A stretch of 10,107 nucleotides of DNA from the NCBI GenBank assembly GCA_016186945.1, contig JACPKR010000009.1:1-10107 (forward strand), read 5' to 3'. The first letter of the stretch is position 1, and each line of letters opens with the position of its first letter. Source of the stretch: Deltaproteobacteria bacterium. Its GTDB lineage: Bacteria > Bdellovibrionota_B > Oligoflexia > Oligoflexales > Bog-1112. A program made the position numbers and the translations under genes. The notes under the pieces were generated by a model that was not told the origin of the DNA, made no database searches, and saw only the letters and a list, made by a program, of their open reading frames with translations. Below, piece after piece: positions 1 through 7,727 of the stretch.

Positions 1-61
1 GCAGTGCTTCCACTGCTACCTTTGCTTTAAACTGGGCTGTATGCCGTTTCCTCTGCGCCAT
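1..61 (-). CDS. IS3-family transposase OrfA, N-terminal fragment (cut by window edge)
   Basis: The visible product is MAQRKRHTAQFKAKVAVEAL, the standard N-terminus of the HTH-carrying OrfA of IS3-family elements (families often read RKRHTAEFKAKVALEAL). OrfA supplies DNA binding, and the DDE catalytic OrfB is normally made by programmed frameshifting further downstream, which here would be beyond base 1. The ATG at 61-59 is chosen because AAGGAGGG lies 6 bases upstream of it on the minus strand. Only 20 codons are present, so integrity is unknown. Confidence 0.85.
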   Translation of the reverse strand, partial: MAQRKRHTAQFKAKVAVEAL

Positions 62-115
62 ATGAATCCCTCCTTGGCGATGTTTTAATATACCGGAGGG
101 TCTTACTTAGCAAGC

Positions 116-135
116 TGTCCAGTTTTCGGGGTCCA
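116..135 (-). repeat. Terminal inverted repeat of the IS3-family element
   Basis: On the minus strand the sequence starts TGGACCCCG and ends AACTGGACA. It lies 55 bases upstream of the transposase start, the usual distance between an IS3-family end and orfA. The partner end lies outside the window. Confidence 0.8.
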
Positions 136-164
136 CTATAAGTCATGATTTTTTGCCTAAGACT

Positions 165-3426: not shown

Positions 3427-3444
3427 GGCAAGGAGGTGGTTTGG
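3427..3444 (+). repeat. Partial copy of the palindromic repeat family (leader segment)
   Basis: An 18-base segment (GGCAAGGAGGTGGTTTGG) is identical, in inverted orientation, to 7675-7692, the part of the pyrE-embedded element that precedes its main hairpin. Here the hairpin is missing and unrelated sequence (CTGACCGCCGGCG) follows, so this is a truncated copy. Confidence 0.6.
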
Positions 3445-3500
3445 CTGACCGCCGGCGTGAAGCTCACAAACATACTGTTACGACAAACGACTTTGAATCA

Positions 3501-3515
3501 GCCCTGCCCCAGGGC
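3501..3515. repeat. Small intergenic hairpin
   Basis: GCCCT, loop GCCCC, then AGGGC gives a 5-bp G+C-rich stem. No T-run follows, so it is not a terminator. It may be a decayed member of the neighbouring palindromic elements. Confidence 0.35.
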
Positions 3516-3582
3516 GTGTTCATATGAGAAAAGATTAAGTCGCAAGGAAGTTTGAGTTGTAAGTATGCTGTCTGGCCCGGTA

Positions 3583-3626
3583 GCAAGGAGGGGTTCAGGG
3601 GAAACTTCGCAGATGGTTCCCCTGAA
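3583..3626 (+). repeat. REP-like palindromic element, copy A
   Basis: It begins with the family leader GCAAGGAGG and continues into a hairpin with perfect 10-base arms TTCAGGGGAA (3594-3603) and TTCCCCTGAA (3617-3626) around a 13-base loop. The loop (ACTTCGCAGATGG) matches the loop of copies B and C (ACTGCGCAGCTGG) except at two positions, while the arms differ in sequence but pair perfectly. That is covariation, as expected when the structure is what is kept. Confidence 0.75.
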
Positions 3627-3658
3627 TTGGAATCGCCTAGAATTTAAATGAGACGGCC

Positions 3659-3726
3659 CTTGGAGGGAACTGCGCAGCTGGTTCCTCCAAGAAATCCGGG
3701 GGAGGCGACGCTTCACTCGCCCCCCC
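3659..3726 (+). repeat. REP-like two-hairpin element, copy B
   Basis: Hairpin 1 has arms CTTGGAGGGAAC (3659-3670) and GTTCCTCCAAG (3681-3691) with one bulged G and loop TGCGCAGCTG. Hairpin 2 pairs GGGGGAGGCGA (3698-3708) with TCGCCCCCCC (from 3717) around CGCTTCAC. Positions 3660-3689 match the reverse complement of 7649-7678 at 29 of 30 bases. The order of hairpin 1, a short linker and a G/C-rich hairpin 2 is the same as in the copy inside pyrE. Confidence 0.8.
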
Positions 3727-3851
3727 AAACCCCCCTCTCCCTATTTGCCCCAAGTGGCTTACGCATTACTCCTCCAAGATAAACTCACTGGAAACTTTAG
3801 GGGAGTCGGGTTAATCTTCTAAGAGTTGTTTTTTCCGGAAAGGACGCGGTT

Positions 3852-7042: not shown

Positions 7043-7727
7043 CACGAAGAAAGAATTTCTTAATTTCTGCGAAAGTCATGATGTCATCCGTTTTGGTGAT
7101 TTTACGTTGAAGTCGGGACGGAAAAGCTCTTACTTTTTCAACCTGGGAAAACTTCAAAGCGGCGCTGCCTGGGCAAAGCTGGGGAGTTTTTTCGCCGATG
7201 CAATTGTTCAATCTCGGATTACATACGATGTTCTTTTCGGCCCCGCTTACAAGGGGATCCCCATCGTGTTTAGTACGGCAATCGCACTTTTCGAAAAGCA
7301 CGGGATTGATGCTCCCGTCTGTTTCAATCGAAAGGAAGCGAAAGACCATGGAGAAGGAGGGGTCTTGATAGGCGCTCCTTTGAAAGGTCGAGTCTTGCTC
7401 GTCGACGATGTGATTACCGCTGGGACCGCCATCTACGAATCTGCGGAAACGATCCGTCGTCAAGGTGCCGCACTGACCGGAGTTCTAGTCGCTCTCGACA
7501 GAGAAGAGGAAGGGAGCAGGAGCCGGTTGCAAGCCTCGGAAGAGATTGCGAAGGAACTTAACGTAAGGGTTTTTAGCCTCGCAAGGAGATCTGAATTCCT
7601 CACAAAGGCTGTGCAGAGCCAATTGGGGTCGCTCCCCCAAGGAATTCCTGGAGGAACCAGCTGCGCAGTTTCCTCCAAACCACCTCCTTGCCCCTCGCTA
7701 AGATCCTTCAGGGAGGTAAGCTTGTGA
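7032..7727 (+). CDS. pyrE: Orotate phosphoribosyltransferase with repeat-derived C-terminus
   Basis: Joins orotate and PRPP to OMP, the substrate of PyrF. Taken from the ATG at 7032 (AAGGTGGG upstream), the product has 231 residues against 213 in E. coli. Core motifs are intact: [14 protein letters not shown] (24-37), [11 protein letters not shown] (68-78), [13 protein letters not shown] (98-110) with the flexible catalytic loop, and the PRPP motif [13 protein letters not shown] (121-133). Homology with E. coli PyrE fades after [10 protein letters not shown] (about 188-197). From L198 on, the codons lie inside a REP-like element, so the last family helix (E. coli AEHLAAVKAYREEFGV) is replaced by a Pro/Ser-rich tail ([20 protein letters not shown]...). 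The stop overlaps the upp start by 4 bases. The enzyme probably still works, since the catalytic parts are upstream. Confidence 0.95.
7623..7692 (-). repeat. REP-like two-hairpin element, copy C, inside the 3' end of pyrE
   Basis: In minus orientation the order is leader (18 bases shared with 3427-3444), hairpin 1 with arms TGGAGGAA (7649-7656) and TTCCTCCA (7670-7677), linker GGAATTCC, then hairpin 2 with TTGGGG and CCCCAA arms (7623-7640). The loop of hairpin 1 holds the palindrome CTGCGCAG, also present in copy B. The element begins exactly at codon 198 of pyrE and ends about 30 bases before the upp start, leaving the upp ribosome binding site (GGGAGGT) intact. Confidence 0.8.

Follow-up and report, generated by a model that had tools for sequence, protein, structure and literature searches.

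The window, the whole 10,107-nucleotide stretch analysed here, is contig C74 of a 76-contig, 2.66-Mb source genome that is 91% complete. It encodes PyrE and a POR protein whose nearest named relative (66% identity) comes from a bog 'Deltaproteobacteria' MAG. An antitoxin gene of the MqsA type, encoding a Panacea domain, adjoins an uncharacterised 126-aa reading frame, possibly as a toxin-antitoxin pair, and inspection by eye suggests that the contig starts in the end of an IS3-like insertion sequence. Four sites in the window, copies A, B, C and D, are clearly recognisable as remnants or copies from a single dispersed family (Table 1), and there is also a probable head stub of the beta subtype, recognised by comparing the sequence with beta heads and short enough that the match could be due to chance. 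A separate dispersed repeat has several further partial copies in the genome (86–97%).

Table 1. Positions of repeat copies and other features in the window
Feature	Position	Strand	Description
Contig start	1–140		Resembles an IS3-like end (tgtccagttttcggggtccacta)
MqsA-type antitoxin gene and 126-aa reading frame	165–1390	−	Possible toxin-antitoxin pair
Copy D	3427–3443	+	17-nt stub of head, GCAAGGAGGTGGTTTGG; from head scan
Separate dispersed repeat	3507–3539		GCCCTGCCCCAGGGCGTGTTCATATGAGAAAAG
Probable beta-subtype head stub	3541–3555	+	GCAAGGAAGTTTGAG
Copy A	3583–3626	+	Gamma subtype; GCAAGG head and hairpin TTCAGGGGA...TCCCCTGAA; terminal repeats absent
Copy B	3660–3768 (start ~3659)	+	Left-truncated; profile match 112.5 bits, model 35–145 of 146
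Right terminal repeat of copy B	3744–3768	+	TTGCCCCAAGTGGCTTACGCATTAC, complete
Last part of pyrE reading frame	7587–7727		Made partly of copy C
Copy C	7626–7695	−	Truncated; profile match 66.6 bits, model positions 18–88 only

A preliminary description of this DNA had reported two-hairpin copies, and these are real. Copies B and C, on opposite strands, have TTGGAGG[G/A]AACTGCGCAGCTGGTTCCTCC in common; the loop of copy A (AACTTCGCAGATGGTT) is related to theirs, and its arms, TTCAGGGGA and TCCCCTGAA, differ from theirs and pair perfectly. The leader GCAAGGAGG precedes A, C and D, as described. The sequence claims of that description stood, as did the assignment of copy C to the opposite strand, and two extents changed. 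Copy B, previously delimited at 3659–3726, continues through CCAAACCCCCCTCTCCC in the profile match; its two hairpins are followed by a C-rich tract and then by the right terminal repeat, which is complete, whereas the left end is absent; copy C moved from 7623–7692 to the position in Table 1. Stretches of 101 nt that are 96–99% identical to copy B occur at ~40 other places, which is the number scored, while copy A has an exact copy at C33 and a 98% copy at C54.

Copy C runs from the head through hairpin 1 into the first part of hairpin 2 and has neither terminal repeat. Comparison of PyrE proteins places it in frame at the 3′ end of pyrE, a region in which the window protein diverges from related PyrE proteins, whose own ends are different and mostly shorter. 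This is similar in kind to the Rickettsia palindromic elements found inside genes.

Abundance and distribution of the family

A 21-base core of hairpin 1, allowing at most 3 mismatches, matched the whole genome 412 times (196 forward, 216 reverse). The reversed control pattern gave 0 matches genome-wide, so the hits to the core cannot be put down to chance. The 31-base hairpin gave 390 matches. The core is thus not confined to this locus, and the dispersed, high-copy palindromic family envisaged in the preliminary description survives the genome search, with copies that are mostly intergenic.

Classes of copy were counted in sampled stretches that total ~785 kb and cover about 30% of the genome. 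There, a profile built from complete copies detected 194 fragments, making up 2.2% of the sampled DNA. Only 11 of the 194 lie inside predicted genes, though 87% of the sample is coding, as computed with a home-made gene finder. The orientations of genes flanking the copies (−− 51, −+ 46, +− 38, ++ 38) revealed no terminator-like bias when set against those at intergenic gaps in general (91, 97, 54 and 80, in the same order). Among internal forms, the most frequent one (94 nt, 15 copies) shows 98.6% identity between copies, so the amplification is recent.

A search of 55 relatives, among them the one genome from the same genus (75% complete), found neither the 31-base hairpin nor the core, and neither core nor element matched the viral contigs or plasmids searched. 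Within the limits of these collections, the family is lineage-specific. The relatives searched are too distant to supply empty sites, with PyrE identity of at most 41%, and lack the core.

Architecture and target duplications of complete copies

Terminal inverted repeats (TIRs) of 25 bp were found at both ends of 40 of the 194 sampled fragments. These complete copies span 143–169 bp, carry no transposase gene and are bounded by TIRs that begin GTAATGCGTAAGCCACTTGGGGCAA (GTAATGCGTAAG inverted repeats); the element ends read GTAATGCG. A complete copy opens with GTAATGCGTAAGCCACTTGGGGCAA and GGAGGTGG; hairpin 1 comes next, a short linker joins it to hairpin 2 and the C-rich tract of the latter, and TTGCCCCAAGTGGCTTACGCATTAC closes the element. 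On the opposite strand, the second half reads GCAA, a G-rich head, TTTGG and then a hairpin. It therefore repeats the head and hairpin of the first half, and the unit is a head-to-head doublet. Other copies have a beta unit, its GCAAGG head clearly recognisable, as their second hairpin, and the C33 copy combines a delta unit with a gamma unit in the facing orientation (heads: GCAAGGAGGTGG in alpha, GCAAGGAAGGGAG in beta). The complete copies and these beta and delta/gamma pairings agree with the earlier suggestion of BIME- or REPIN-like head-to-head hairpin doublets. One copy, at L127 from position 1501, has a TIR that runs directly into hairpin 2 with hairpin 1 missing, an internal deletion form.

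The complete sequence is predicted to fold into a long stem capped by two hairpins (−89.8 kcal/mol and z −10.7 as RNA; z −12.5 as single-stranded DNA). Compensatory pairing was not seen between the two TIR arms, whose likeness within a copy was no better than that of shuffled arms (p 0.26). The hairpins, by comparison, fall into subtypes (alpha, beta, gamma, which includes copy A, delta and epsilon) that differ in their arms and in one loop pair, and they carry compensatory base changes. Across 18 distinct hairpin sequences, 96.3% of cells were paired and both sides had changed in 36 cells, where shuffling led to an expectation of 12; shifting the pairing partner by one base abolished the signal. 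The sequences had been preselected for having 5 or more of the 9 arm pairs, and much of the signal reflects shared ancestry within subtypes, so it amounts to a handful of events rather than 36.

Direct repeats of at least 7 bp, mostly 8–9 bp, flank 15 of 39 complete copies (examples are caactaac, gtttcttgg, ctccgccag, cataagcgg, ctgaaggt and ctggctta); the shuffled null averaged 0.47 and never exceeded 4. Where an exact duplication immediately abuts the TIRs, it measures 8 bp in 8 copies and 9 bp in 3, and over half of all complete copies lack an exact duplication. Target duplications are characteristic of transposases that cut the target in a staggered fashion, which places the complete copies among the miniature inverted-repeat elements (MITEs). 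To our knowledge, Y1/HUH transposition does not produce them.

About half of the 194 sampled fragments reach neither terminal repeat, and none of 60 such TIR-less copies has a target duplication. Among 132 alpha cores, 38 begin at GGCAAGG or GCAAGG and only 2 begin further inside, while 27 are short solos that terminate just past CCTCCAAG; the right ends of solos are not sharp. The shortest TIR-less class averages 0.37 mismatches per 45 nt, close to the 0.33 of complete copies, compared with 0.81 in the left-remnant class, and 13 of the 19 members of the shortest class carry the exact consensus 45-mer. With their sharp GCAAGG start, consensus-like sequence and absence of duplications, many of the TIR-less copies look like REPs. 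Tandem half-copies were also observed, on the minus strand of L067 (13588–13658) and L056 (12657–12721), each with a head and an incomplete hairpin 1 that a short spacer separates from a full hairpin 1; they may arise from replication slipping at the hairpin.

Candidate transposases

The preliminary description expected a RAYT-type enzyme, encoded by a gene flanked by the element, to move the family. Four Y1-transposase matches are present in the genome. The three long enough to test fit IS200/IS605 (NF033573), the third being a fragment just below the cut-off, and score at most 26.5 bits against the RAYT model NF047646, whose cut-off is 80. No family copy lies within ~1.5 kb of the two matches on C40, and the remaining two of the four are flanked by copies on just one side. 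No RAYT gene was found in the 91%-complete assembly. Movement by a RAYT is not borne out by these IS200/IS605-type genes, nor by the 25-bp TIRs and 7–9-bp duplications of the complete copies.

Among the enzymes that use terminal inverted repeats, IS66 was attractive for its ends and duplication length. IS66 ends begin GTAAGCG and the duplication is 8 bp (PMC11946415); like IS66, the family has an inverted repeat in the 20–30-bp range beginning GTAA and duplications that are most commonly 8 bp, but its ends read GTAATGCG rather than GTAAGCG, and the genome yielded no match to the IS66 transposase (PF03050). IS256 is represented by one fragment and DDE_Tnp_1 by two, none with the family's ends, and all were rejected as drivers. 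A strict whole-genome pattern for an autonomous partner, in which a TIR runs into other sequence, returned five places, all of them ordinary or rearranged family copies. The searches of the 91%-complete assembly thus yielded no transposon or transposase that has the ends of this family. Many described MITEs likewise have no identified autonomous partner, and we do not treat this result as decisive. The driver could be encoded in the 9% of the genome that the assembly lacks, could have ends too diverged for the pattern, or could have been lost.

A probable MITE-like family with REP-like units

Taken together, the family very probably consists of non-autonomous, MITE-like elements in which 25-bp TIRs enclose two head-to-head REP-like units, mobilised in trans, most likely by a DDE-type transposase. 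Each unit would comprise a GCAA or GCAAGG head followed by a hairpin. A transposase supplied in trans would recognise the inverted repeats, make staggered cuts of 8 (sometimes 9) bp and insert copies mostly into intergenic DNA; a DDE enzyme appears most likely, as the end sequence and the duplication length resemble those of IS66. No host function is needed to explain the family. The missing transposase with these ends, and the many complete copies that lack an exact duplication, weaken this reading.

For the TIR-less copies we prefer an origin by truncation or by hairpin-arrested replication, which would also account for the tandem half-units on L067 and L056. By the same reasoning, copies A and C would derive from complete copies rather than from a separate transposition system. 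Plain decay, however, does not predict that the shortest TIR-less copies should be so consensus-like or start so sharply at GCAAGG. This leaves some room, as a less likely alternative, for two routes of mobility: complete elements moving through their TIRs and a DDE transposase, and solo GCAAGG units moving separately, with neither duplication nor RAYT. The lack of target duplications around all 60 TIR-less copies, the exact consensus 45-mer in most of the shortest class and the clustering of left ends at GCAAGG or one base before it are consistent with a second route. Against it, the right ends of solos are not sharp, left-remnant copies are slightly more diverged, no enzyme is known for such a route, and gene conversion between copies could keep solos close to the consensus. 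Were two routes operating, REPs and MITEs would be linked as stages of one system.

We consider it improbable that this is a true REP/REPIN family, in which the doublet or a single GCAAGG hairpin moves as single-stranded DNA, the outer inverted repeats are secondary and a RAYT (Y1) transposase is missing from the incomplete assembly. REPINs and BIMEs (PMC3116915, PMC3733652, PMC2817692) also consist of two inverted REP-like hairpins in hundreds of intergenic, species-specific copies, and the compensatory hairpin changes and the sharp solo units without target duplication would fit as well. In contrast to RAYT-moved families, this one has an outer 25-bp TIR and 7–9-bp target duplications, its genome, 91% complete, yielded no RAYT, and its head is GCAAGG rather than the GTAG or CGTC tag of most REP families (PMC3733652). 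Functional RNA or terminator elements held by selection at gene ends, for which the strong fold, compensatory changes and intergenic location might argue, are very improbable, given target duplications that show mobility, the absence of an Rfam match and flanking-gene orientations like those of intergenic gaps in general.

The MITE-like reading has close parallels. Coxiella QMITE2 and Geobacter Chunjie (PMC10969869) are likewise short, non-coding and intergenic, with TIRs and direct repeats in complete copies and many truncated copies that have lost both and are then REP-like; truncated MITE copies that resemble REPs are known from QMITE2 (PMC10969869). Judged by descriptions rather than by sequence, the present family differs in its much higher copy number (412 cores), its internal head-to-head doublet with compensatory subtypes and the sharp GCAAGG start of its solos. 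ERIC and Correia/NEMIS elements (PMC10969869) are also imperfect palindromes of 100–200 bp with tens to hundreds of intergenic copies, from which the family is set apart, again by descriptions and not by sequence, by its two-hairpin doublet and its different lineage.

The family is real, abundant, recently active and apparently previously undescribed; its complete form works like a MITE, and its internal units and solos are REP-like. In the DNA sampled from this uncultivated bacterium it accounts for about 2%, and its many near-identical copies probably break assemblies of such genomes. By combining the traits of MITEs and REPs, it is well suited to examining whether MITEs give rise to the REP-like repeats of genomes that lack RAYTs.
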